Shown: positions 408 to 21,424 of the stretch, one piece after another | How positions within the stretch are numbered: the stretch's first letter is position 1 | How the letters are laid out: each line of letters starts with the position of its first letter | Made by a program: the position numbers and the translations under genes | Origin: a virus | IMG/VR virus record: IMGVR_UViG_3300027856_000027 | Location: 1 to 24,242 of that record | Direction: 5' to 3' (one strand) | DNA length: 24,242 bases | The notes under the pieces: model-generated | Database searches by the model: none | What the model saw: the letters and a program-made list of their open reading frames with translations, nothing else | What the model was told of the DNA's origin: nothing

Positions 408-2729
408 TTAAATGTAAGTATCTACTTTCACCCTAAACGTTAGAGATGCTAAATCAATAGCAACACCAGTAGGATTGAACGCCCTTACAGTAACAGTGTT
501 CGCAGCAGACACGAAGCCTGTAAACATCATAGATCCAATACCAGCCGATGGCGGCACAACTATCACCGCATCAAGCGACTTAACGCCAGTTAGAGTTATG
601 GTTAAGTCTGCGTGAGTTCCAGCAGGTACGCTTGGAAAATCTAAAGTAGCATCAACAGTGAGTACGCTACCTTGAGTTTTAACGTCCACATTGAGCGTTT
701 GAGATACATCACCCTTAAAAGCGTTATCACTAATAATATAGCTTACCACGTTTGGACCAAACTCTAATCCGTAGTCTGTGCTTGATGTCGTAAATGGTAT
801 TGTGACGGCTGTATTTTGCTTGATGGTTATATCTGTAGATTCTTCGATATAGATACCACTAGCATTTGTTGTCACCCCTGCGTTGTAAATATCATTATTT
901 GAAAACCTAACCGATTCCATGTCAGTACCGTTAATTCCATCGTTACCGCTTCTAACTATAATATTGCTATCAATTTTAGAGTTGACTATCGATGTTAAGC
1001 TTATTCCATAAGAGCCAACATCCGTAATTATATTACCTCTAATATTAACAAAAGCGACATCATCAAAAATCGTAGAAGAGACAGCCCCAGCAAAAGGTGG
1101 AACGACTATTCCAGCACCAGAAGTTATATTGCTAATAATATTGCCTTCTACGTCCGTAGCTGTGTAAGGGTACGATTCTTTTAAGTCGCCCTTCCTTAAA
1201 AATATCCCTGCTGAACTCGTGGCATTACCTGTGATTATATTACCTTTGATAACGTTGTTGTCACCGTTAGCATCCACAACAATACCAATGTCATTATTAT
1301 ACAATGTATTTAACGCTATTTTGTATCCTGTTGAACTAAGGCAGAATATACCCCATACAGCACCTTCTACAGTGTTATCTACAATGGAGCAACCATCACA
1401 CTCTGAGTCTGGGAATATACCTGCACCAACACCACTAAAATTATTACTTACGTAATTCTTATTTATTTTTGTATTGGTCTGGTCAGCCATTGCTATGCCG
1501 TTCCCGCCATAAGAGTCAATAATACAATCAGTAACAATCCCTTTATCTCCGCCTACAGAAGTCCCTGTGGCTGTCCTTGGCCCAGTACCGACTAGGATTC
1601 CATGCCATACAGTTTGATTTACTTTTACGTTTTCTATTCTTGGATTTTCACAGCCAGCCAAATACACTCCGTTGGAGTATCGGTTATTAGCGTCTTGTAT
1701 TGATGTAATAAAAATATTTTGATCAACGCCCTGTGTTAGTGCTGGCGATATACCCACGTTAAGAAATTCTTCGCCTATCCCTCCTGCCGCCATAGGCACG
1801 TTGCTGGTGATAGTGTAAACGGTGTTATGAGTAGGGTCTACTTCATATCCATTAAAAGAGCCTGTTACTCTACGCATGAACTGGAACTGCTCCCCAATAT
1901 ACATTTGCGTCAGAGGGAACACGCCAGAGTTGGCTTGTACATTTAACGCATCAAAGTTAAGTAATGAGTCACCTGTTGAAGCGGTTGTTTTCGTTTTATA
2001 GAACGATGCTTGGCCTATATTTACTATAGAATTATCCGTTGCCTCCGCTACCAAAGTCGGCGTAAATGTGATACCTGCCATCGCATTACCCGCCGCCGTA
2101 ACAAAGTTTGTTATAGTGTAGATAGTAGAATCTCCATCGACAGTAAAAGTATTACCGCCCCCGACAGAGCCAGCCAGCGTAGCAGCATCAACATCAATAG
2201 AGCTTGAGCCTATCGGCTTTGTTCCATTAACTAAAGCGCCGCTATTTGCTGTTATTCCCGGCTTGGGTGCGTGCCTTGAAAAGAACCCGCCTCTATCTGC
2301 ATTATGCTGAACAGTAATATCTTTTACTGTAAAGTCGCTCCCGGAAATTGACTCGATGATATTTTGCCTCTGTACGCTATCAGCGAGCTTTAACGTACCT
2401 GCCCCTTCTATAGTAACATTTACCAAGTCCCTATTTGTTCCGTCAATCTTTATTGCTTCCGTCAATTCAAAAACACCGTAAGGAAGATAGTGAACAGAAT
2501 TAGACCCTGCTGTATCTATGCTTGATTGTATATTTGATATATCTATAACTTGCTTTGTAACTGGATTAGCAAAAAACCCATTTACAGGTATAGCGCTACC
2601 GTAATTAGTTGCATTTACCGTGTATAGCGTACCGTTAAGGCTTAACTGGGTGTTAATTCTCGGCTTGCTCGCCTGTAAACCTGATAAGGTAGCGAATACA
2701 CCACCTGTTACTCCGTTACTCATACTCAT
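408..2729 (-). CDS. Tailspike-like protein with parallel beta-helix
   Basis: A 773-residue surface protein, probably a trimeric receptor-binding or polysaccharide-degrading spike. Residues 60-140 look like the entry to a beta-helix (VIDISNIQSSID, then VTIEGAGTLKL). Residues 350-675 hold repeated right-handed beta-helix rungs rich in N-x-I, GI and G-N-I-I patterns (NNVIKGNIIT, VNIRGNIIT, SKIDSNII). Two related beta modules interrupt the start of the helix (about 159-239 and 265-343), each with a YTIT strand. The last 80 residues (from VDATLDFPSVPAG) resemble a beta-rich end domain common in phage structural proteins. Unlike the preceding spike it lacks a recognisable virion-anchoring first domain. 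The start ATG at 2729 lies 3 bases after the upstream spike's stop, with GAGGA overlapping that stop as ribosome binding site. ATG at 2723 is an alternative. Enzymatic activity cannot be assigned. Confidence 0.85.
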   Translation of the reverse strand: MSMSNGVTGGVFATLSGLQASKPRINTQLSLNGTLYTVNATNYGSAIPVNGFFANPVTKQVIDISNIQSSIDTAGSNSVHYLPYGVFELTEAIKIDGTNRDLVNVTIEGAGTLKLADSVQRQNIIESISGSDFTVKDITVQHNADRGGFFSRHAPKPGITANSGALVNGTKPIGSSSIDVDAATLAGSVGGGNTFTVDGDSTIYTITNFVTAAGNAMAGITFTPTLVAEATDNSIVNIGQASFYKTKTTASTGDSLLNFDALNVQANSGVFPLTQMYIGEQFQFMRRVTGSFNGYEVDPTHNTVYTITSNVPMAAGGIGEEFLNVGISPALTQGVDQNIFITSIQDANNRYSNGVYLAGCENPRIENVKVNQTVWHGILVGTGPRTATGTSVGGDKGIVTDCIIDSYGGNGIAMADQTNTKINKNYVSNNFSGVGAGIFPDSECDGCSIVDNTVEGAVWGIFCLSSTGYKIALNTLYNNDIGIVVDANGDNNVIKGNIITGNATSSAGIFLRKGDLKESYPYTATDVEGNIISNITSGAGIVVPPFAGAVSSTIFDDVAFVNIRGNIITDVGSYGISLTSIVNSKIDSNIIVRSGNDGINGTDMESVRFSNNDIYNAGVTTNASGIYIEESTDITIKQNTAVTIPFTTSSTDYGLEFGPNVVSYIISDNAFKGDVSQTLNVDVKTQGSVLTVDATLDFPSVPAGTHADLTITLTGVKSLDAVIVVPPSAGIGSMMFTGFVSAANTVTVRAFNPTGVAIDLASLTFRVKVDTYI

Positions 2730-5126: not shown

Positions 5127-6946
5127 TCTTTTTTTCCTTGACTAGCTAGTGCTTTATAAGCTCGTAATTTTTGATTAAAATCCGGTGTAGATAAATTTTT
5201 TATTCTATCTCTAATGCCTAGTCCAACTTGAACTTCGAGAGGTACGCCAGCGGCTGCATCTGCAGCAACATCAATTAAATTACCTTTTAGCGCGTTTGGT
5301 TTTGCTAGTTTGAATGAGTTCGATATATTATTAGCCATCCAGCTTAGCGCCTCAATATCATCTTTATAGTTAACAGTAAAATCTCTGAGTACGCTATCTG
5401 TGTCTTTTATTAGTTTATTAATAACAACACCACTTGGCGCGTTAGATGTTATTCGCCTGGCTTTATTTCCTAGTATCTCACTAGATGCTGAGTCGAATAT
5501 ATCAATCTGGCTACCATCCAAGTCTTTTCCTGCTAACTTATTGAACGCTTTTTTAAGCCCGATGGTTTTACTGAAATCAATATTGGCTAATTCGTACGTA
5601 GTAGATTTTGAGTCTAATACATCATCTATGCCCCTAGATAAGTCAGTTAATAGTTTTTCTGAATCTGCGTCAATTTTTCCTGTTCCTAGCTCGTTATAAT
5701 CAATATTCTTTCTTATTGATTTTTTTAGGTTGTGAGCATCTTTAAACCCCTGCTTACTGTTTGATAATTTATTTACCAATTTAGTCATCTCTTCTTTGCT
5801 TCCGCCTGAGAAGTCAGACCGACTAAAATCAGGCGTTATCCATCCGTCATCACCTTTAGTGAAGGTCACGCCCATTTTATTTAGTTTAGTGGCAAAAACA
5901 TCTACAGGGGATGAAATATCAACCTCTACACCTTTTAATTTATCAGCAACATCTCCTATTCTTCTGCTGGCTCTTTTGTTTACGCGGTTAATGTCTTGCG
6001 CTCTATCTATTATAGCGTCTCCGACAACATCAATAGGGCTAAACTTCTGCTTAGTTAGCGGATTTTCCTTGCCAGCCTTAACGCCATCAAGCATTTTATT
6101 CACACGTTTTTTAGTGGCAGAGCTGGCGTTTTCCATGACAGAAATCACCTCTCTTGCTGACTCCTCGCCAAAGCTTTTCTCAAGCACTTTAAATGCTCTA
6201 TTGGTTGTCTTGTTGTTTATGATGTTTCCGCGAGAGGTTATCTCTTTTCCTATATTTTGCGTGTCTGGAGAGTCAGATAAAATACTTTCCGCTAACACCT
6301 TTCTAGCATCTTTAGGGTCTTTAAATGCTAGGTTTGGCAATGTTGTTTTTGGTCTAGTTAAAGCACCGACACCAATCATTTCACCAACCATTGCAGGAAT
6401 TGTTTTTATAAACGCACCGACTGCTGGACTGCCTGTCAAGTCAAACCCTTTATCAGCCGCTTTAGATGTGAATTCGTCAACAGACTCAATCATAGGCTTT
6501 AACGGCTCTAATTTATCAGCCATTTGCTGAATAGCCGCGTCCTCGTTAACACCCCGAGGTTCGTAAGTTAATATCTCTTTAACATTATTTAAAACCTGTA
6601 CAGGATCATTACTTGTTAATGGATTTAATAAATCAACGGTAGCTGTTAAGCCTCCTACAATCTCGCCAGCAATGCCACTACCAAGCTGTAAAGCGCCTTC
6701 AAAGCCGCCGATCAACTGATTGTTTAATTGCTGAGGTTCTAAGTCTTTAGCTGTTAATGGTTGCTCTGTAATGCTTTCTGTTACTGGTGCGGTGCTTTGT
6801 TCGGCGGGAGCTATCTCTTGCTCTGGCTGTTCATCAAACAAACCTTGAGACTTAGCGAAGTTCAATATTTGATCGTCTGTAGCCCCCTCTGGAGCTTCAA
6901 TCTGAAAGCTTTGCCCTGATGGTGACTGTATAGTAACAATAGGCAT
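5123..6946 (-). CDS. Internal virion/ejection-type protein, 607 residues
   Basis: A large protein following two other ejection-type genes. Residues 1-37 carry the I-x-APEGATDDQIL module common at the start of phage injection and structural proteins. Residues 38-70 are a Glu/Gln/Pro-rich linker. About residues 78-106 form a Gly-rich hydrophobic stretch (GGFEGALQLGSGIAGEIVGG) and 172-198 another (GAFIKTIPAMVGEMIGVGAL), both possibly membrane-interacting. The rest is helical, Lys/Asp/Asn-rich, and without a visible enzyme motif such as a lysozyme or transglycosylase. By position it parallels P22 gp16/gp20 or other podovirus internal proteins, but no specific homology is claimed. Its TAATG start overlaps the stop of the upstream 392-residue gene. 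Confidence is high for the gene, moderate for the role. Confidence 0.75.
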   Translation of the reverse strand: MPIVTIQSPSGQSFQIEAPEGATDDQILNFAKSQGLFDEQPEQEIAPAEQSTAPVTESITEQPLTAKDLEPQQLNNQLIGGFEGALQLGSGIAGEIVGGLTATVDLLNPLTSNDPVQVLNNVKEILTYEPRGVNEDAAIQQMADKLEPLKPMIESVDEFTSKAADKGFDLTGSPAVGAFIKTIPAMVGEMIGVGALTRPKTTLPNLAFKDPKDARKVLAESILSDSPDTQNIGKEITSRGNIINNKTTNRAFKVLEKSFGEESAREVISVMENASSATKKRVNKMLDGVKAGKENPLTKQKFSPIDVVGDAIIDRAQDINRVNKRASRRIGDVADKLKGVEVDISSPVDVFATKLNKMGVTFTKGDDGWITPDFSRSDFSGGSKEEMTKLVNKLSNSKQGFKDAHNLKKSIRKNIDYNELGTGKIDADSEKLLTDLSRGIDDVLDSKSTTYELANIDFSKTIGLKKAFNKLAGKDLDGSQIDIFDSASSEILGNKARRITSNAPSGVVINKLIKDTDSVLRDFTVNYKDDIEALSWMANNISNSFKLAKPNALKGNLIDVAADAAAGVPLEVQVGLGIRDRIKNLSTPDFNQKLRAYKALASQGKKE

Positions 6947-8124: not shown

Positions 8125-8888
8125 TACACGCTACCTCCTGCCATGTTAAACCCTAAATTTGAAGTGTCAGGTGGTGTGGTGTTATTAGTTCCGAATAGAT
8201 TAGTAACATAATCTTGTACATCTTGATTGCCAGCTAATTTAGAGCCAATATCAAAAATATTACCTCTTCGTGCTGATGCTGCGTTCTCGCCTGCGATAGT
8301 TCCTGCTGCTTGTGTTGATCCACCACCAGTTATCAAGTCGGATATTTGTTGTGATGCGGTTTGTTCGACACCTACTTGCTGACCTGCAGTATTCTGCCCT
8401 ATATTTAATAGGTTTAGGATATCTTGTCGTTGCCTGTCAATTAGTGGTTGTGCTGCTAATGTTGCGTTATTTTGTAACTGCATCAACGTATCGCCAGCCG
8501 TTAATCTTCCTCTGGCTGCTGCGCTTTTATTTGTTTGTGTGTTTAGGTTGTCAAGACCTAGCTGAAACAAAGGGTTGTTTTGTGCGAATTGCGCCTGTGC
8601 GTTTGGATCGCCTAAAAAGCCAGCTAAATCTAAACCCTGCTGACCAACCTCCGCAAACGGAGTTAAAAAATCTTGTGATGCTTGAGCGCCTAAATCAACC
8701 CTATTTTGTGCGTCTTGAATAGCTGCCAATTGTTGCTTTGTTGCTCGCCTTGATGCTCGCTCGCCTTGACTACCGCCACCAGCAACAAGTCCGCCAATAG
8801 CTGCGCCTATAGCGCCGCCAACTGGACCACCTAAAGCTGCACCTGCTATTGGTGCTGCAATACCAGCTAAATTTTTTAAAAAACTCAT
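8124..8888 (-). CDS. Ejection-type protein with glycine-zipper first segment
   Basis: A 254-residue protein resembling podovirus DNA-transfer/internal proteins of the P22 gp7/gp14 kind. Residues 5-40 form a Gly/Ala-rich hydrophobic glycine-zipper stretch (AAPIAGAALGGPVGGAIGAA), suited to inserting into or crossing a membrane. The rest is Gln/Asn/Ala-rich helix with the motif NPLFQLGLDNLNTQTNKSAAARGRL, typical of phage proteins in this position. It is the first gene after a 90-base gap carrying a candidate promoter and has an AAAAGG ribosome binding site. It overlaps the next gene by a TAATG junction. The role is inferred from composition and order. Confidence 0.78.
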   Translation of the reverse strand: MSFLKNLAGIAAPIAGAALGGPVGGAIGAAIGGLVAGGGSQGERASRRATKQQLAAIQDAQNRVDLGAQASQDFLTPFAEVGQQGLDLAGFLGDPNAQAQFAQNNPLFQLGLDNLNTQTNKSAAARGRLTAGDTLMQLQNNATLAAQPLIDRQRQDILNLLNIGQNTAGQQVGVEQTASQQISDLITGGGSTQAAGTIAGENAASARRGNIFDIGSKLAGNQDVQDYVTNLFGTNNTTPPDTSNLGFNMAGGSV

Positions 8889-8949
8889 AAATAAAAACCT
8901 TTTTAGTTGTTATCTGCCATGAGTCCATAAAGGTTATTCAAGCAAATAT

Positions 8950-8977
8950 ATTATATCATTAATTTATAACATGTTAA
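8950..8977 (-). promoter_or_regulatory. Candidate sigma-70 promoter for the ejection/tailspike genes
   Basis: On the minus strand, TTAACA (8977-8972) and TATAAT (8955-8950) are separated by 16 bases. The -10 is perfect and the -35 differs from TTGACA at one position. The predicted start is near 8943, giving a leader of about 55 bases before the ATG at 8888. It lies in one of the few gaps of the late region. The AT-rich sequence raises the chance of a false hit. Confidence 0.55.
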
Positions 8978-8978
8978 A

Positions 8979-9320
8979 TCAAGTCTCTGTTTCTCGGCCA
9001 GATAGTGTAAAGTAAATACTATCTGGAGCGCTTGACTCTACATAAAGCTTGCCGCCGGGCGGGATAACTTGCCCGTCAATTCCTGCCCCTAAATCTATTT
9101 CGCCCCACACTACAATCCTGTACTTTATTTGCGGGTTATCTATACCCTCATCCTTTGGTACGATGTAAGCCCTGTAATACCTGTTTACAGTGCTAGTGTT
9201 TGTTGCTGTGAATGCGGTTATGATTGTGCCTCCGCCTCTTTCGGGCGATTGGTAAATCTCCTCTGGCTCATCAGCTATTGTATTTGCCGTCTTGCTAATT
9301 ATCTGTTTTGAAGTTGCCAT
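8979..9320 (-). CDS. Conserved phage structural-type protein, 113 residues
   Basis: A small protein predicted to be mostly beta strand, with a pattern seen in phage tail or connector clusters: TIITAFTATNTS (about 32-43), then RYYRAYIVP, GQVIPPGGKLYVESS (about 83-97) and a SGRET end. The N-terminal 25 residues look extended. I do not know its function. The order after the gp10-like gene suggests a tail or tail-accessory component. Its start ATG at 9320 overlaps the stop of the 434-residue gene (TAATG). It is the last gene before the promoter-bearing gap. Confidence 0.7.
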   Translation of the reverse strand: MATSKQIISKTANTIADEPEEIYQSPERGGGTIITAFTATNTSTVNRYYRAYIVPKDEGIDNPQIKYRIVVWGEIDLGAGIDGQVIPPGGKLYVESSAPDSIYFTLSGRETET

Positions 9321-10624
9321 TACCTTTGCTCCACAATGTAATAACTATCTATCTCGGCTGTCACGTTGGATGTTGATGTGTTGTTAGCCACTTCTAAATA
9401 GATATAATCATTCTGGTCTAGCGCTGTATTGATGTTTATCTCAAAAAAAGCCACATCTCGACCACCTACAAAACTATTTACTTGTCGCTGCTGAGTGAGT
9501 ATCACGTTAGCTGTTGATGTTGAATTGTCGAAATTCATTACCCGTAAAGCTAAAACATCATTCGCTGTTGAGTCTATAACAAACGATGCTATTATTTTGT
9601 ACTCTCTGGGCGTGTTGCCTAAATGCCTTAATTGTCCGGCGCTAGGGCTATCAAAGTGCTGTAATCCCTGCGTAGACCAACTGCCAGCGAGAAGTGCTAC
9701 AAATGTACTGGCGGCGCTTATGGTTGTGGTTGTTTCGGTTGACACGCCTATCGAGCCACCTTCAAAAGTATTCGGCATCCCGTTGTTATTTGACCATTTT
9801 GATGATAAATCACCAGCAGTCATATTAGGCGTTAAGTTCGTATCTGTAGCATCAAACACGCCACTTCGGGTTATAATGACACCATCAATTTCAACGGTTG
9901 ACGGATTTACGAACTGAGATGTATTAAAGTCAAAAAATGAAGCGCTTACTGGTAAGTCTATGTTCATGTTAGACCTAAACCTAGATGCCATAGAAAACCC
10001 AGATCCAGCTTTAAATAGCGAGTAAGCTCCATCGTCCAAGCTTCTTACTATAGATGTATCAATGAAAAAACCACCGAGCCATGCACCAGACAAAGTTAAC
10101 TCAGGTTTACCGCCAAACCTCCCAGTGCCAACCTCTAGGCCTTGCCTATATCCATTAATTTCGCCTAATGAAGTGCAATCGTTATAGTTAATACGGGCAA
10201 ATTCAAAAGCATCGAACCCTGTGGCTGATGTTAGGTCGTAAACTACAGAGCCCACCCCTGTTACTTCGATAGCGTAGTCTTTGCCGATTAAGTTACCCGA
10301 GCCACCAGAAGGAGACGTGAACATTGCATAATTAGGACTGCTAGAGGTTAATTTAGATAGATCGAAACTATACCCGGTTATAGTTAATCCTGTAGCTGGG
10401 ATTTCTATTGATTGGCTCCCCATATCAATAATGCCGTCAATAAAATACTGCTTAGAACTATCAAGTGTGCCAGCTAAATCAGATGCAGCTTTTACTATCA
10501 CTATATTATCTAAGTATTGCTCGTAAAGCTCAGCAAAATTAGATTTCACCTTCGTGAATGCATCGAAATAAGTATCGCCCTGCTTGGCGTTTGCTGCGCC
10601 TATATTTATAATTTCTTGAGCCAT
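9320..10624 (-). CDS. Tail-associated protein with virion-attachment motif, 434 residues
   Basis: Residues 4-35 carry a pattern (EIINIGAA, then QGDTYFDAFTKVKSNFAELYE) found at the start of many phage tail-fibre or needle-like proteins, where it is thought to mediate attachment. The middle (about 60-290) is beta-rich and looks like a short beta-helix or prism. The last 110 residues (KIIASFVIDSTANDVLALRV, then YIYLEVANNTS and AEIDSYYIVEQ) look like a jelly-roll-type end domain frequent in phage surface proteins. It may be a fibre, tail needle or minor spike; the sequence does not decide. The ATG at 10624 lies directly against the stop of the 97-residue gene. Confidence 0.75.
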   Translation of the reverse strand: MAQEIINIGAANAKQGDTYFDAFTKVKSNFAELYEQYLDNIVIVKAASDLAGTLDSSKQYFIDGIIDMGSQSIEIPATGLTITGYSFDLSKLTSSSPNYAMFTSPSGGSGNLIGKDYAIEVTGVGSVVYDLTSATGFDAFEFARINYNDCTSLGEINGYRQGLEVGTGRFGGKPELTLSGAWLGGFFIDTSIVRSLDDGAYSLFKAGSGFSMASRFRSNMNIDLPVSASFFDFNTSQFVNPSTVEIDGVIITRSGVFDATDTNLTPNMTAGDLSSKWSNNNGMPNTFEGGSIGVSTETTTTISAASTFVALLAGSWSTQGLQHFDSPSAGQLRHLGNTPREYKIIASFVIDSTANDVLALRVMNFDNSTSTANVILTQQRQVNSFVGGRDVAFFEININTALDQNDYIYLEVANNTSTSNVTAEIDSYYIVEQR

Positions 10625-15711: not shown

Positions 15712-17783
15712 TAAACTAATGCCCCGTCAATATCTTTTTCACTGTCGATTTCTAACTTAGTTAAATCCACAGCTGTGTCGACTTGGTGCTGATTAGCGTC
15801 TTGAGCTGTTGAAATATTAAACTGTCTAATCTTCTCCGCTCTATCCGCTGTCTTTTGGTCAGAAGTGTCTTTGGCTACCATTAGCTTAGCTTGTGCTTCA
15901 ATAGTTTTACTTTCTGTAAACGCTTGTAATTGTCTTATTTGCTCAGACTGCATTTGCATAGCTTCTTGCATCTGTAAAACCATAGCGTTCAATTGTTCGT
16001 TATCAGCGCGTAGATTCTCATCTGGCTCAGCAGGATCATTAAACAGTCGCTCAGAACGATTAAAGCCTAGCCCGTCAGTTAATGCGGTTAGGTTTGAATA
16101 AATACCCTCTTCGTCAACTATCTTAGAGCCAGCAGCTTTTAATTGCTGCTGTATGGTGTAAATGCCTTGCCTAGCTTCGACTAACTGCTCATTACTTCCA
16201 GCACCTAAACCAACTTTCGATTCCACGTGATGATTGTATTTCCAGCTAGTAGGATTAACGGTTAATGCTTTACCTAATATACGAAACTCTGTCGCTGTAT
16301 CTTGGTATCGAGAAACTAACCAAGCAATGCCCTCATACAATTTACGCCATCCAGTTTCAGCATAGTTTCGGGCTATCAACTCTATCTTAGCTTGACCGTC
16401 ATCGCGTACACCTTCAAAACGTGTAGCTGTCTCTCTGCCTATAGCGTCAGAATCTAAACCTTGATTAGACAATAAAGCGCCAGTTGTTTGCGCTCTTGCT
16501 TGGTCTACATATTGAAGAACTTGTAATGTACGGTCGCCAATATAAGGAATAACGAGAGGCATAACAGCCTGTTGAGGCAATATGGTGGTATCATCTTCTA
16601 GCCTGACCAGTCCATTAGTGCGGACAGTTAACATATCATCTAAATCAACATCAGGATGAACGACATTACGGGGATTGTTGACCATGTAAATATTATCATT
16701 CATGCCGCGCTGCAAGGCTGTTTTCTGTCTTTGTGTTTCGTAAGTTATTTCTGCGCGACTTCTACCGATAGCTTTATGAGGCATTAGGATGGCTGACAAA
16801 GAGGCGTAAGGTACGTGGTTAAATAATTCGTTAACTAAAACCTTATTACCACTAGTCATGATATGTCGTCGCTCTGCTATCCCATCTCCGTCATAATCAA
16901 TCCTGACGTATAGGTCAGATATTTCTACTAACTGATTGGCCCAATCATTAATGGTTTCAGAGTCATTAGCACCGCCTTGGTCACGGTTACGGATAGCTTT
17001 TAAGTTGCTACTTCTGTTTGTATCATTGCCAATTGTAGGCAGTTGATCTACTAATTCACGACTAAAGCCGCGAGATAATAATTCGCCTCTTGTGCTTGAA
17101 TCTGTATCACCCACCAACTCAGCATCACCTAAGCTTGTAGCGTTACGAGTAATTCTAAAGCGTTCAGGCGGTACATTAATTATGCATACCTTTTTAGTCT
17201 CACGGGTTACTCTGAATTTAATATCAAAAGTTTGTTGTTCTGTCTCTGATTGCTCGGACACCTCAACCTTAACCCTGTCAACTTCTGCGCCTTGTATACT
17301 TTTTTGTATAGCAATTATTTCATTACCATCAACGCCAGTATACTCAACCTCTTCAACTTCTTTTTTGTCTTCGATAAAGTATTTAATAACGCCATTCTTC
17401 TGTATTTCTGCGTCCTTCATCCAGTTGTGAAGCGTTTGGAATGAGTCTGGCTGATTACGTATGATCCAGTTTACGTATTTAGTTTTTTCTTCTGCCTCTG
17501 CAATCTCAGCTTCATTATCAGTATTAGGTTGAAACTCTAATATATCGCCTGATCCTAAAAAGATACGCGCCAAGCTGGGCATATCTGATTCAACTACGTC
17601 AGCAATATCTGTTGAAACTACACTTGATTGGTTCGGGATAGCAGCAAAATCACCTGACTTTTCAGCTAAGTAACCTTTTAAATACTTTTCGTTTTCGCGT
17701 GAGAATTCGCCGCTGTATTCAGCCGCTTGGTTTTCCGCTTGAGATAGAATAGAGATTAACTCACTATCAGTCATTTTTGCCAT
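15711..17783 (-). CDS. Portal protein (P22-like)
   Basis: A 690-residue portal, close to P22 gp1 in length. Landmarks in order are a helical start (MTDSELISILSQAENQAAEY), TDIADVVESDMPSLARIF (about 57-74), the wing region with FRVTRETKKVCIINVPPERF, the clip/crown block DYDGDGIAERRHIMTSGNK (about 297-315), then NPRNVVHPDVDLDD and GLDSDAIGRETATRFEGV. A C-terminal Gln/Ala-rich coiled coil (about 590-690, LNAMVLQMQEAMQMQSEQ) may form a barrel like that of P22. The start ATG at 17783 has AAGGG 7 bases upstream and a promoter immediately before it. The gene is separated from terminase by a divergent plus-strand cassette. Confidence 0.92.
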   Translation of the reverse strand: MAKMTDSELISILSQAENQAAEYSGEFSRENEKYLKGYLAEKSGDFAAIPNQSSVVSTDIADVVESDMPSLARIFLGSGDILEFQPNTDNEAEIAEAEEKTKYVNWIIRNQPDSFQTLHNWMKDAEIQKNGVIKYFIEDKKEVEEVEYTGVDGNEIIAIQKSIQGAEVDRVKVEVSEQSETEQQTFDIKFRVTRETKKVCIINVPPERFRITRNATSLGDAELVGDTDSSTRGELLSRGFSRELVDQLPTIGNDTNRSSNLKAIRNRDQGGANDSETINDWANQLVEISDLYVRIDYDGDGIAERRHIMTSGNKVLVNELFNHVPYASLSAILMPHKAIGRSRAEITYETQRQKTALQRGMNDNIYMVNNPRNVVHPDVDLDDMLTVRTNGLVRLEDDTTILPQQAVMPLVIPYIGDRTLQVLQYVDQARAQTTGALLSNQGLDSDAIGRETATRFEGVRDDGQAKIELIARNYAETGWRKLYEGIAWLVSRYQDTATEFRILGKALTVNPTSWKYNHHVESKVGLGAGSNEQLVEARQGIYTIQQQLKAAGSKIVDEEGIYSNLTALTDGLGFNRSERLFNDPAEPDENLRADNEQLNAMVLQMQEAMQMQSEQIRQLQAFTESKTIEAQAKLMVAKDTSDQKTADRAEKIRQFNISTAQDANQHQVDTAVDLTKLEIDSEKDIDGALV

Positions 17784-17810
17784 TAGTGAACCCTTTAATT
17801 AGATTGTACT

Positions 17811-17839
17811 ATTATATCTTGTTTGCACAACCGTTTAAA
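17811..17839 (-). promoter_or_regulatory. Candidate sigma-70 promoter for the portal/head operon
   Basis: On the minus strand, TTTAAA (17839-17834) and a perfect TATAAT (17816-17811) are separated by 17 bases. Transcription would start near 17804, about 20 bases before the portal ATG, with the AAGGG ribosome binding site in between. The -35 is only 4 of 6. It overlaps the promoter facing the other way. Confidence 0.6.
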
Positions 17840-17850
17840 TGTGCGATAAT
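17823..17850 (+). promoter_or_regulatory. Candidate sigma-70 promoter for the antisense HTH/zinc-ribbon cassette
   Basis: TTGCAC (17823-17828) and GATAAT (17845-17850) are separated by 16 bases on the plus strand, each one or two bases off consensus. A start near 17857 would give a leader of about 28 bases to the ATG at 17885. Its elements interleave with those of the minus-strand portal promoter. Confidence 0.6.
17825..17844. promoter_or_regulatory. Inverted repeat, candidate operator between divergent promoters
   Basis: GCACA (17825-17829) and TGTGC (17840-17844) form a perfect inverted repeat with a 10-base spacer, so the half-sites are centred 15 bases apart, between one and one and a half helical turns. 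It spans the spacer of the plus-strand promoter and the -35 of the portal promoter, so a dimeric protein bound here would block both. The adjacent HTH-like gene product is the obvious candidate ligand. Confidence 0.5.
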
Positions 17851-17884
17851 CGTATATCGAATAGGCGGTTTACACTGGTACGTA

Positions 17885-18064
17885 ATGATAAAACACAACG
17901 CAACAAGAATACTAACAAGTAAAGGCTGGACTATTGAACAAGCTTGTTATAGGTGGGGTATGAGAATTTCCACCTATAACGCAAGATGCAATAATCCCGC
18001 ATTAGTTCAGCAATTGGAAGATATGTGCCGAGGATTAGAGGATAAATTAAATGAAAAAACTTAG
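17885..18064 (+). CDS. Small HTH-like protein, possible repressor, 59 residues
   Basis: A plus-strand gene amid minus-strand late genes. From ATG at 17885 the product reads MIKHNATRILTSKGWTIEQA and continues with CYRWGMRISTYNARC. A helix-turn-helix can be drawn over residues 15-33, with TIEQACYRWG as the first helix and ISTYNARCNN as the recognition helix. The short length and a C-terminal amphipathic helix (LVQQLEDMCRGLEDKL) fit a small dimeric regulator of Cro type, though no specific family is recognised. The reading frame is open further upstream to 17777, but that stretch would cover the promoter and portal start, so the ATG at 17885 is preferred. It has only a weak ribosome binding site. 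It overlaps the zinc-ribbon gene by 14 bases. Confidence 0.68.
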   Translation: MIKHNATRILTSKGWTIEQACYRWGMRISTYNARCNNPALVQQLEDMCRGLEDKLNEKT

Positions 18065-18224
18065 ATACTTTAAATGCACAGAAACTCAAGAGGTTTTTGA
18101 GAGGCTCGTTAGCGATGCACAGTTAAATGTTAAATGTAATTGCGGGGCTAATGCTTTAAAACAACTGTCAGCGCCTCGTTCGTTTGGCAATACCTTAGGT
18201 AAAAGCCCGTCTAGTAGGTATTAG
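18051..18224 (+). CDS. Zinc-ribbon-like small phage protein, 57 residues
   Basis: ATG at 18051 to TAG at 18224. The product begins MKKLRYFKCTETQEVFERLV, then has VKCNCGANALKQLSAP and ends with GKSPSSRY. The Y-F-x-C start, the FE-x-L-V block, the C-x-C-G knuckle and the LSAP tail are the layout of FmdB-like phage zinc-ribbon proteins, often found near terminase or portal genes. Only three cysteines (9, 29, 31) remain, so metal binding may be incomplete or use another ligand. It overlaps the upstream HTH-like gene by 14 bases (coupled translation) and its end overlaps the convergent end of the large terminase gene by 14 bases. Function is unknown. Confidence 0.75.
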   Translation: MKKLRYFKCTETQEVFERLVSDAQLNVKCNCGANALKQLSAPRSFGNTLGKSPSSRY

Positions 18225-19665
18225 TTTTTCCGTAGTTTAATTCCTTTCTGGCTCTTTTTGATGGTGGTGTAAACATTATCATCATTATAGAGTCAGCCAT
18301 ACCGGGGGAGTCAATCCCTTGGTTTTTCATTTCCTGCTTGTTCATTATCTGCTGTAATCCATTAGAGTTATTCTTTCTTGGTATACGACAAAGCTCAGAC
18401 CTTAAAGCAGGTAAGCTTTCAATGCCTTCACTATCAAAGCTTATCATTTCGTTTGGATCTACATATTCCCCTTTCACTACGCACCTATATGTGTTGTAAC
18501 ACCTATCAGCAAGCATAATGTAATGTTGCGCTCTGTTGTTCTTAAATACCTCAGCGTTAGTTAATTGATTTGCCTTGTCTCCATATCCTTTCTGGTAAAT
18601 CTTTTCCGCGTTATCTTGTCCTTTGCCTGATAAAGAGCCTTTAAACATTTGATACTTGGTATTAGTTCCATCAAAGTTATCAGATACTTGGCGCTTCAAT
18701 CCCGCACCCATTCCGTCGCCATCCCAGATAAACCAATCAGCTTTATGCTCTCTTGCTAAGTTAGTGGCCCAATCGCAACCCACGTCTATTTCACCAGAAT
18801 TCTTTTCTAGTACGTGCTGAACTATAGAGCCATGCCGCATAGCATAACCTTTGTTATCTTTCCCTGTGTCACTAGGGTCGTGCCCTGATATTCTAGCACC
18901 TAAAGGCTTGAATACTTCCTTTAGCTTGTCTAACTTGTGCGCATCAATACATGCGTCGAACCATTCAGTTTTAATAATTGAATCTTCGACCTCATCATTG
19001 AATTTACCCTCCCATATCCAGTCGTACTTAGCTCTAGATAAGTTTTCATAGTCCCATTGCCGCAATGTTTCTTGTTCAGCATTCCACCAAGGATTATCTC
19101 TCCAGTTAACCACGATAATTAGATGAAGTTCATCCTCATAATAGCCGTTGCGCTCTAACTCTTTTAAGTAAGGAACTATGAATCTTTGTGAAAATGGATC
19201 TGCGCTCGATTGAGGGTTAGCACTAAACCAACACTCAGCGCCGGGGTTTCTTAGTATAGTGGGAAGTAGCTTATCAATAGAGGCCTGGCTCATTGTCTGC
19301 GCTTCTTCAAACCAAGAGTATTTATATCCTTGTGCTGATTGAATGGAGTTGGGGTTTCTAGATGCGCCCTTATAGGTAGTTTGAGCGCCTTCTGGAGATA
19401 TTATCTTTTTCTCTTGAACATTCCAACCGTCAAGATTGAGCCTTTCATTTATTGAGCCTTCAAAAACCCTGTGGACTGAATCTGCTATTGAATCCTGAAA
19501 CTCACGCAAGCAATAAACATCAGCTTTCTCTGTTGCCATCTTAAAGGTTAAAGCGTCCCCGATACCTATAGACTTCCCAGAGCCACGACCACCAATAGCT
19601 ATTTTTAATTGTTTTGGCTTGGTAAGGAATGGCTCTAGCTTCTTATTTATTTTAAGAGTCGGCAT
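18211..19665 (-). CDS. Terminase large subunit (PBSX-like ATPase-nuclease)
   Basis: A 484-residue packaging motor that cuts and pumps DNA into the procapsid through the portal. Walker A is GGRGSGKS (residues 25-32). Walker B is YSWFEEAQ (116-123), with Glu120/Glu121 as the catalytic pair. The coupling motif is SANPQS (148-153). The C-terminal RNase-H-like nuclease has GHDPSDTGKDNKG (261-273) and WDGDGMGAG (314-322) as metal-binding aspartates. All key residues appear intact and the length is normal. It overlaps the small subunit gene by 14 bases. Its 3' end overlaps the opposite-strand zinc-ribbon gene, and the portal follows only after the antisense cassette. Confidence 0.95.
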   Translation of the reverse strand: MPTLKINKKLEPFLTKPKQLKIAIGGRGSGKSIGIGDALTFKMATEKADVYCLREFQDSIADSVHRVFEGSINERLNLDGWNVQEKKIISPEGAQTTYKGASRNPNSIQSAQGYKYSWFEEAQTMSQASIDKLLPTILRNPGAECWFSANPQSSADPFSQRFIVPYLKELERNGYYEDELHLIIVVNWRDNPWWNAEQETLRQWDYENLSRAKYDWIWEGKFNDEVEDSIIKTEWFDACIDAHKLDKLKEVFKPLGARISGHDPSDTGKDNKGYAMRHGSIVQHVLEKNSGEIDVGCDWATNLAREHKADWFIWDGDGMGAGLKRQVSDNFDGTNTKYQMFKGSLSGKGQDNAEKIYQKGYGDKANQLTNAEVFKNNRAQHYIMLADRCYNTYRCVVKGEYVDPNEMISFDSEGIESLPALRSELCRIPRKNNSNGLQQIMNKQEMKNQGIDSPGMADSIMMIMFTPPSKRARKELNYGKTNTY

Positions 19666-20409: not shown

Positions 20410-20927
20410 TATTTATCCGTCCAAATTGTTGTTACTGATGTTTGATTAGTCCAGCTAGTTGATACGGCTTCTTTATCAGTCCATACCTGACCGGGTAAAA
20501 TTATTTGTATATCAGAGCCGTTATAAGCATAAGTACCTGTTGAGGCAATTATAACACGATTACGGTTAAAGTTAATGCTCTGCCCTGAATAGCTATAACC
20601 CCCACTATCTGCCGATAATGTAAATGTTCCAGCAGGAGTATAAGTTAGTGTTACACTGGCCCCAGTATAAGAATAAACTCCCGACTCAGCGGTGAGAACA
20701 AAGCCCCTTAATAGATTTACGCTTGTACCTGTGTAGCTATAAGAACCGTTGTTAGCGCTTAGCATTCTTGCTGTGATTAAATTAGCATCAGTACCTAAAT
20801 ACGAATAAGTCCCGCTGCCCGCTACTAATGTATTGCCGCCAGAAGCATCCTCGCCAGCCCACCCAATACGAACAGCGCCTAGTCTGTAAGCACCTATCCT
20901 GTTAGCTCCCGTTTGAACTAAAGACAT
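20409..20927 (-). CDS. YSY-repeat surface protein, 172 residues
   Basis: The middle of this protein consists of five copies of an approximately 22-residue unit, L-x-A-x-S-G-x-Y-S-Y-x-G. The YSY (once YAY) triplets are at residues 41, 63, 85, 111 and 133, so the spacings are 22, 22, 26 and 22. Residues 1-27 form a Gly/Arg-rich start (GANRIGAYRLGAVRIGWAGE) of the kind found in phage fibre-like proteins. The end has three WT(D/N) motifs (149, 159, 169) spaced by ten residues. This is a beta-solenoid-like or stacked-strand architecture suited to a fibre or decoration protein. Similar glycine/tyrosine repeats occur in other phage structural genes. Function is unknown. Confidence 0.72.
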   Translation of the reverse strand: MSLVQTGANRIGAYRLGAVRIGWAGEDASGGNTLVAGSGTYSYLGTDANLITARMLSANNGSYSYTGTSVNLLRGFVLTAESGVYSYTGASVTLTYTPAGTFTLSADSGGYSYSGQSINFNRNRVIIASTGTYAYNGSDIQIILPGQVWTDKEAVSTSWTNQTSVTTIWTDK

Positions 20928-20929
20928 TA

Positions 20930-21424
20930 TTAAGCCTTGAAGTTGATCGAATTTATGTAATTAATATCACCAGAAACGTCAATCAGATCTTCAAAATACT
21001 GCCTGCGCCCTGACAGGTGGTTAGATATATTTTTAAATTCGTTTGTTTTAGAGATGGTTCTTTGTAACTGATCTTCTCTTGTTATGCCTCTGGATAACGC
21101 TATAGCATCAATGTTTGGGGTTTGTGATGTGTTATCAAGGATATAAGACTCAACCTCTAATCTTTGGTAAGGCCACGTATGGCGCTCAAAGCTAGGATAC
21201 CCCAGTTCTATCTCGATCATTAACAACTCAGATTGTCGCTTAATTCGATTCTTAGCTTCTTTTTTTGCTAAAGGTATAGGATCATAATTATCAATAAGCG
21301 CTTGAACTTCTTTATCAGGCTTGTCCGAATGCTGAATAGTGACTTTATTTCTATGTTCAATAGATATGCCATTTTCAGATAAAAACTCAATCAGTCCTTT
21401 ACCTTTCTCTTTCCAGTTTATCAT
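20930..21424 (-). CDS. Phage tail-region protein with helical middle, possible assembly chaperone
   Basis: A 164-residue, highly charged, mainly helical protein. The segment LIDNYDPIPLAKKEAKNRIK (about 43-62), followed by EIELGYPSFERHTWPYQRLE, is a pattern I associate with tail-region phage proteins of the DUF4376-like kind, some of which lie next to fibre genes. The N-terminus has FLSENGISIEHRNKVTIQH. A chaperone role is only inferred from the position between two fibre-like genes and from the charged helical composition. The start ATG overlaps the stop of the 288-residue gene (ATGA); its own stop is 2 bases before the repeat gene. Confidence 0.62.
   Translation of the reverse strand: MINWKEKGKGLIEFLSENGISIEHRNKVTIQHSDKPDKEVQALIDNYDPIPLAKKEAKNRIKRQSELLMIEIELGYPSFERHTWPYQRLEVESYILDNTSQTPNIDAIALSRGITREDQLQRTISKTNEFKNISNHLSGRRQYFEDLIDVSGDINYINSINFKA

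Follow-up and report, generated by a model that had tools for sequence, protein, structure and literature searches.

The window analysed here, which is the whole stretch of 24,242 nucleotides of the virus record IMGVR_UViG_3300027856_000027, carries every substantial gene between positions 408 and 24122 on the minus strand, with the exception of two short coding sequences of 59 and 57 amino acids. The initial annotation had placed this plus-strand pair exactly between the large terminase and portal genes of a minus-strand operon, and both the positions of the coding sequences and the portal and terL profiles confirmed this arrangement. The two coding sequences overlap by 14 nt, and the 57-aa gene overlaps the stop of terL in a tail-to-tail orientation. 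The features of the locus are as follows:

15714-17783, minus strand: portal gene of the SU10 type, left flank of the slot (PF23899, SU10_portal, 4e-145)
17811-17839, minus strand: predicted divergent head-operon promoter, TTTAAA-N17-TATAAT, for the portal and downstream head genes (consensus scan)
17822-17850, plus strand: predicted cassette promoter, TTTGCA-N17-GATAAT, equivalent to TTGCAC-N16-GATAAT (consensus scan)
17825-17844, no strand: GCACA-N10-TGTGC inverted repeat, present once and perfect in one of eight class A leaders
17838-17845, plus strand: candidate operator box 1, AATGTGCG, a direct repeat with box 2 at a lag of 22 bp
17860-17867, plus strand: candidate operator box 2, AATAGGCG, at the start of the transcribed leader, a direct repeat with box 1 at a lag of 22 bp
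17885-18064, plus strand: 59-aa HTH-like gene, putative class A regulator and first gene of the cassette (relatives, dN/dS, model)
18051-18224, plus strand: last gene of the cassette, encoding a degenerate FmdB-like zinc ribbon of 57 aa (relatives; under the family cut-offs)
18214-19665, minus strand: large terminase gene terL, right flank of the slot (PF04466, Terminase_3, 2e-26; phrog_2, 2e-38)

The GC content of the cassette was 0.375 compared to 0.404 in its neighbors, a difference to be read with the observation that 13.5% of segments of equal size were equally low. No Rfam families or tRNAs were detected in the window, and no named phage showed DNA similarity to it.

Relatives of the 59-aa protein, with 75-85% identity, occupy the same genomic place, and the median dN/dS of this gene within class A, the class to which the window belongs, was 0.10 (28 pairs). 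The corresponding value for the 57-aa gene was 0.16, obtained from only three pairs, two of which were saturated at synonymous sites. As judged from these substitution ratios, purifying selection is acting on both small genes. The 59-aa protein had no Pfam or NCBIfam match, and sequence profiles compared to solved structures returned matches at chance level only. Its AlphaFold2 model (pLDDT 81.6) contains helices at residues 5-13, 17-24, 28-35, and 38-49, and the best structural neighbor of the model was Aca1, although the match was weak (Z 4.7, rmsd 3.2 over 54 residues), followed by ImmR and other XRE-type regulators. The Foldseek E-values of these matches exceeded 0.2 and fall short of proving a fold; a deeper folding alignment, which left out two rows from named phage records, yielded a more confident model yet weaker Foldseek E-values than the first alignment. 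The designation HTH-like is thus retained on the strength of the predicted model and the weak XRE/Aca-type structural matches, while the protein families of Pfam and NCBIfam lend it no support, and we treat the assignment of the fold as a lead.

The 57-aa protein, previously described as zinc-ribbon-like, aligned with the FmdB-type zinc ribbon (TIGR02605, PF09723) over residues 7-42, with scores below the cut-offs of both models (17.4 vs. 34.4 bits for PF09723 and 17.8 vs. 31.3 bits for TIGR02605). Whereas the FmdB family has two cysteine pairs, the copy in the window has only three cysteines, at positions 9, 29, and 31, and a score of about half of the cut-off. The earlier description therefore holds as a weak FmdB-type similarity, and membership in the FmdB family itself was not supported, given the scores under the cut-offs and the missing cysteine pairs. 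Relatives of this gene were found in 36 of 80 portal loci, some of them in overlapping records, and were always antisense.

These 80 loci were retrieved by a search for related portal genes and derive mostly from metagenomic fragments, some of the records overlapping; records were merged only when the leader and HTH sequences were identical, and the counts were made without tree-based correction. The gap between terL and the portal gene was mostly 8-45 bp in loci lacking an island, the state seen in most of the distant relatives, and 254-2638 bp in the nearer relatives that carry an antisense island. On these comparative grounds, the locus of the window represents one allelic form of a slot for antisense accessory genes in phages with SU10-type portals, and further slots were found after the portal gene and before the scaffold gene. 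The HTH gene usually comes first in the island; the number of short cargo genes behind it ranges from none to several, and the last of them is often the 57-aa zinc-ribbon-like gene. Most of the cargo remained without assignment, the exceptions including DUF551- and DUF3310-type proteins. Defence-system models matched neither the two genes of the window nor six cargo proteins, no acr gene was recognised among the neighbors examined, and a homing-endonuclease cassette was discarded as an explanation since the cargo proteins examined had no such domain. A clear terminator closing the island was not found; the scan of the window detected no terminator-like site within 75 nt past the stop of the 57-aa gene and placed a terminator candidate at 18301-18323 on the plus strand, inside terL. 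Given the lack of a terminator-like site near this stop, antisense RNA running across the 3' end of terL is plausible.

The HTH-like genes constitute one alignable family represented by 47 distinct loci, in which at least four classes (A to D) could be distinguished, and pattern scans of bacterial genome contigs detected no relative of classes A and C. Each of the classes A to C has its own upstream motif that is absent from the other classes. In class A, TGCGATAATC lies in the cassette promoter of all eight leaders and in none of the 39 others; a motif of the TATAGTGTCA type occurs in seven of the eight class B leaders, and TACGATA in 13 of the 15 class C leaders, neither being present in any other leader. 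Because each motif is physically coupled to its HTH class, linkage explains much of this sorting. Class D genes come first in L050, L055, and L109 and are internal in other islands, and in four loci of the latter kind (L027, L035, L069, and L087) the leader still shows the class D spacing of 74-77 bp between promoter and start codon, indicating that the pairing reflects more than adjacency. In addition, a class B HTH gene in one locus (L039, positions 617-838, minus strand) is fused in frame to a C-terminal class A remnant (QQLEGMCNGLEDKLND), and this replacement scar, where a class B gene with its leader is joined to a class A tail, indicates that regulator and leader were replaced together.

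Overlapping divergent sigma-70-like promoters had been proposed upstream of the 59-aa gene, and both the plus- and the minus-strand promoter were found at the proposed place and are kept in the relatives, even though the number of promoter-like sites in the region, by consensus count, was near chance (15 found vs. 11.6 expected). The predicted cassette promoter has an extended -10 element, with TGC preceding GATAAT, while the island promoter predicted for class C reads TTGACT-N17-TACGAT. On the side of the head genes, TATAAT was located upstream of the portal gene in 24 of 35 island loci vs. 4 of 32 island-free loci (Fisher 4e-6, relatedness uncorrected), which supports the earlier proposal of a head promoter able to uncouple the head genes from the terminase. 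A general sigma-70 score separated the head promoters of the two groups only slightly (9.13 in islands vs. 8.64 in non-islands), and in this comparison the exact TATAAT, rather than the general score, was the informative feature of the island loci.

The position of this head -10 element relative to the regulator is fixed. It lies exactly 74 bp before the ATG of the HTH gene in all eight class A leaders and exactly 96 bp before the HTH start codon in all 20 class B and C leaders, so that one of these two spacings was observed in 28 of 28 leaders, compared to approximately seven of 28 expected with such a box at any distance. The spacing of 74 bp was seen again in L055, L069, L087, and L109, as well as in L148, which belongs to another lineage. 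The head -10 box was also found in islands that have no HTH gene and is, therefore, independent of that gene. When all islands are considered, the first start codon tends to lie 53-54, 74-77, or 96 bp from the head -10, the shortest of these distances occurring in several islands without an HTH gene; the steps of about 21-22 bp look as if operator units had been gained or lost.

The initial annotation had regarded the GCACA-N10-TGTGC inverted repeat as the operator of the HTH-like protein. The repeat is indeed present once at 17825-17844, and 0.01 occurrences of the exact pattern would be expected, although an inverted repeat with arms of 5+5 is not unusual once arm and spacing are left free. 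Across the eight distinct class A leaders, 5, 4, 4, 3, 2, 2, 1, and 0 of the five pairs were retained, and the repeat, perfect in one leader, did not withstand the comparison with relatives and was ruled out as an operator. Moreover, inverted repeats in classes A to C were not above those of column shuffles (p 0.28-0.90).

Direct repeats in the leaders, also tested by column shuffle, gave a different picture. The best lag was 22 bp in class A, weak when considered alone (p 0.14 over all lags), 21 bp for TATAGTGTCA in class B (p < 0.002), 22 bp for TKAACTACG in class C (p 0.002), and 21 bp in the class D1 leaders; when five leader groups were combined, the highest scores were z 3.3 at lag 21 and z 3.8 at lag 22. 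No direct repeat was detected in six leaders from HTH-less islands (p 0.98), and the 21-22 bp repeat was absent from the class D2 leaders. Box 1 of class A sits directly next to the island -10 and shares 2 bp with the head -35; because box 1 overlaps the promoter, part of the class A repeat is explained by promoter conservation. The candidate boxes cover the island promoter at its -10 element and around the transcription start, where the site of a self-repressor would be expected. Thus, self-control by the HTH-like protein, as formerly suggested, gains comparative support from upstream elements that are specific to each class and contain direct repeats in helical phase. In contrast, the repeats of classes B and C are clear of the core of the head promoter and lie at non-matching distances from it, and this variation in box position among classes is an argument against that promoter being directly controlled.

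The portal-proximal leaders of class D2 (L055, L087, and L027) contain a hairpin, CCGC..GCGG or CCGT..ACGG, a paired change that would fit an RNA element better than a DNA operator; inverted repeats in this class were slightly above shuffles (p 0.04).

The comparison of flanking genes points to transfer between phage lineages. Class C HTH proteins are 72-91% identical (most of them 83-91%) across lineages in which the flanking head genes do not align, and their slots include SU10-type portals, phrog_145 portals, the junction of minor-head and scaffold genes, and others. Between lineages, identity starts at the HTH gene and continues as far as the head -10 (about -96); beyond -110 it is at chance level. 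Since homology ends just past the head -10, what moves as a module is the regulator gene together with the predicted promoters of the island and, divergently, of the head operon. Similarity between class B and class C leaders is concentrated in two blocks, corresponding to the -10 of the head promoter and to about the -35 position. HTH relatives were also identified in the Vibrio phages 13VT501A (L184) and 1.052.A (L188), beside a Lar restriction-alleviation gene and a C5 DNA methylase; the accessory clusters with HTH relatives in named Vibrio phages also include a DndB-like gene and are not always antisense.

We consider it probable that the locus is a horizontally exchanged, Aca-like, self-repressing antisense cassette whose divergent promoter restarts the head operon. 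The comparison among relatives shows genes under selection, an antisense slot, class-specific leaders, a fixed promoter geometry, and transfer between lineages, and from this basis we infer DNA binding, repression, the order of events in time, a freeing of the head promoter, and what the cargo does. The core of the proposed module would be the HTH gene and approximately 105 bp upstream of it, a segment with the island promoter, the divergent promoter of the head operon, and operators formed by direct repeats that are separated by two helical turns. Host RNA polymerase would read the island and the HTH protein would build up, until the accumulated protein, at the direct-repeat operators, would repress its own operon. 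This shutdown would limit antisense transcription into terL and, with polymerase gone from the island promoter, would leave the overlapping head promoter free to restart the interrupted head operon. A counter-defence function of the cargo is a guess by association.

An alternative that we hold to be doubtful is that the module operates as a portable promoter switch, in which the divergent promoters compete and shutdown of the antisense side by the HTH protein releases or activates the head promoter, thereby timing capsid expression. The divergent promoters do overlap, the head promoter belongs to the mobile module, box 1 of class A reaches 2 bp into the head -35, and the invariant distances of 74 or 96 bp, which are 22 bp apart, could be the geometric trace of such a device. 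Shared descent could also preserve this spacing, however, and the head -10 persists in islands lacking the HTH gene, while the boxes of classes B and C stay clear of the core of the head promoter at distances that do not match. If the switch did operate, an accessory cassette would set the timing of capsid genes in whichever late operon it enters. It is unlikely, in our assessment, that the locus is a plain moron, that is, an accessory pair with a constitutive promoter of its own, expressed, for example, from a prophage, whose HTH-like protein acts elsewhere, on a host gene or a lysis-lysogeny switch of the phage, and leaves its own promoter uncontrolled. Insertion between genes that are adjacent in relatives and a freely varying cargo would be compatible with this explanation, as would the one relative in which an integrase-like and a LexA-like gene were seen by eye, whereas class-specific motifs, phased repeats over the promoter, and the joint exchange of HTH gene and leader are unexpected for an unregulated unit.

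Control at the RNA level, with the leader RNA or antisense RNA over terL as the main effect instead of DNA binding, seems very unlikely. The hairpins of class D2, with their paired change and inverted repeats slightly above shuffles, are in line with it, and so is an island read towards terL with no clear terminator; classes A to C lack such dyads, part of the conserved box sequence is located before the transcription start, and no Rfam match was found. Finally, that spurious open reading frames and AT-rich, promoter-like sequence came together by chance is hardly credible: a count of promoter-like sites near expectation and an unconserved inverted repeat would suit such a reading, which is refuted by conservation, considering dN/dS values of 0.07-0.16, many relatives at the same place, and a fixed geometry.

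Among described systems, the acr-aca operons are controlled by the autorepressors Aca1-Aca10, small HTH proteins of 60-79 aa in most families, which have a conserved inverted-repeat site inside the core promoter and are usually encoded downstream of the acr genes (PMC9410906). By analogy, the cassette shares with them a small HTH-like protein in an accessory phage operon, candidate class-specific sites in the core promoter, and a proposed logic of self-repression. Unlike them, the cassette usually has its HTH gene first and not after acr genes, shows direct rather than inverted repeats in classes A to C, contains no known acr, and is antisense with a divergent promoter for head genes; since the inverted repeat failed in relatives and no acr gene was recognised, we do not file the cassette as Aca. 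Small self-controlling repressor genes are also present in the late region of phage P22, where the immI region (mnt, arc, and ant) encodes the ribbon-helix-helix proteins Arc and Mnt, which control an antirepressor. Position and gene content differ between immI and the cassette.

Morons and regions of genomic plasticity are known from lambdoid and Mu-like phages (PMC4378225), and the cassette resembles them as an accessory unit with a promoter, here predicted, inserted between genes that are adjacent in relatives. It differs from them in its reversed orientation, its dedicated regulator family, and its putative restart promoter, as well as in having no clear terminator and a GC content that is slightly low. 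The accessory hotspots of P2 and P4, loci of approximately 1-5 kb that are flanked by two conserved phage genes and whose gene content turns over at a high rate (PMC9122126), are like the cassette slot and yet carry whole anti-phage systems, whereas the two genes of the window and the six cargo proteins examined had no match among defence models. No description of an antisense, regulator-led, promoter-restoring cassette was found in the open-licence literature, and by analogy the cassette is best read as a variant of the known moron or acr-aca kind. As such, it suggests how a reversed accessory operon may sit in an essential late operon without silencing it, with the putative restart promoter and its own regulator travelling together from one phage to an unrelated one. 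Genes of the small HTH family could serve as a marker for candidate counter-defence genes, as the aca genes did, and the classes of this family offer a natural set of putative regulator-operator pairs of constant geometry that are open to direct testing.

Some additional observations concern individual loci. In L137 (4001-5550), a class C HTH gene is followed by a D12 DNA adenine methyltransferase gene and one unassigned gene, all antisense, and this cassette sits between head genes of a different phage. L076 carries a double island on the minus strand, with a lone zinc-ribbon gene at the terL-portal junction (5765-5932) and an HTH-led island after the portal gene (8228-9361). The contig G002, which includes L020 and L021, has an integrase-like gene at 16029-16628 (minus strand) and a LexA-like gene at 20794-21000 (plus strand), both judged by eye, and at least one relative may, therefore, be temperate. 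In the window itself, a late protein of 172 aa encoded at 20412-20927 (minus strand) shows several similar repeats by eye and a borderline lipocalin-like match.
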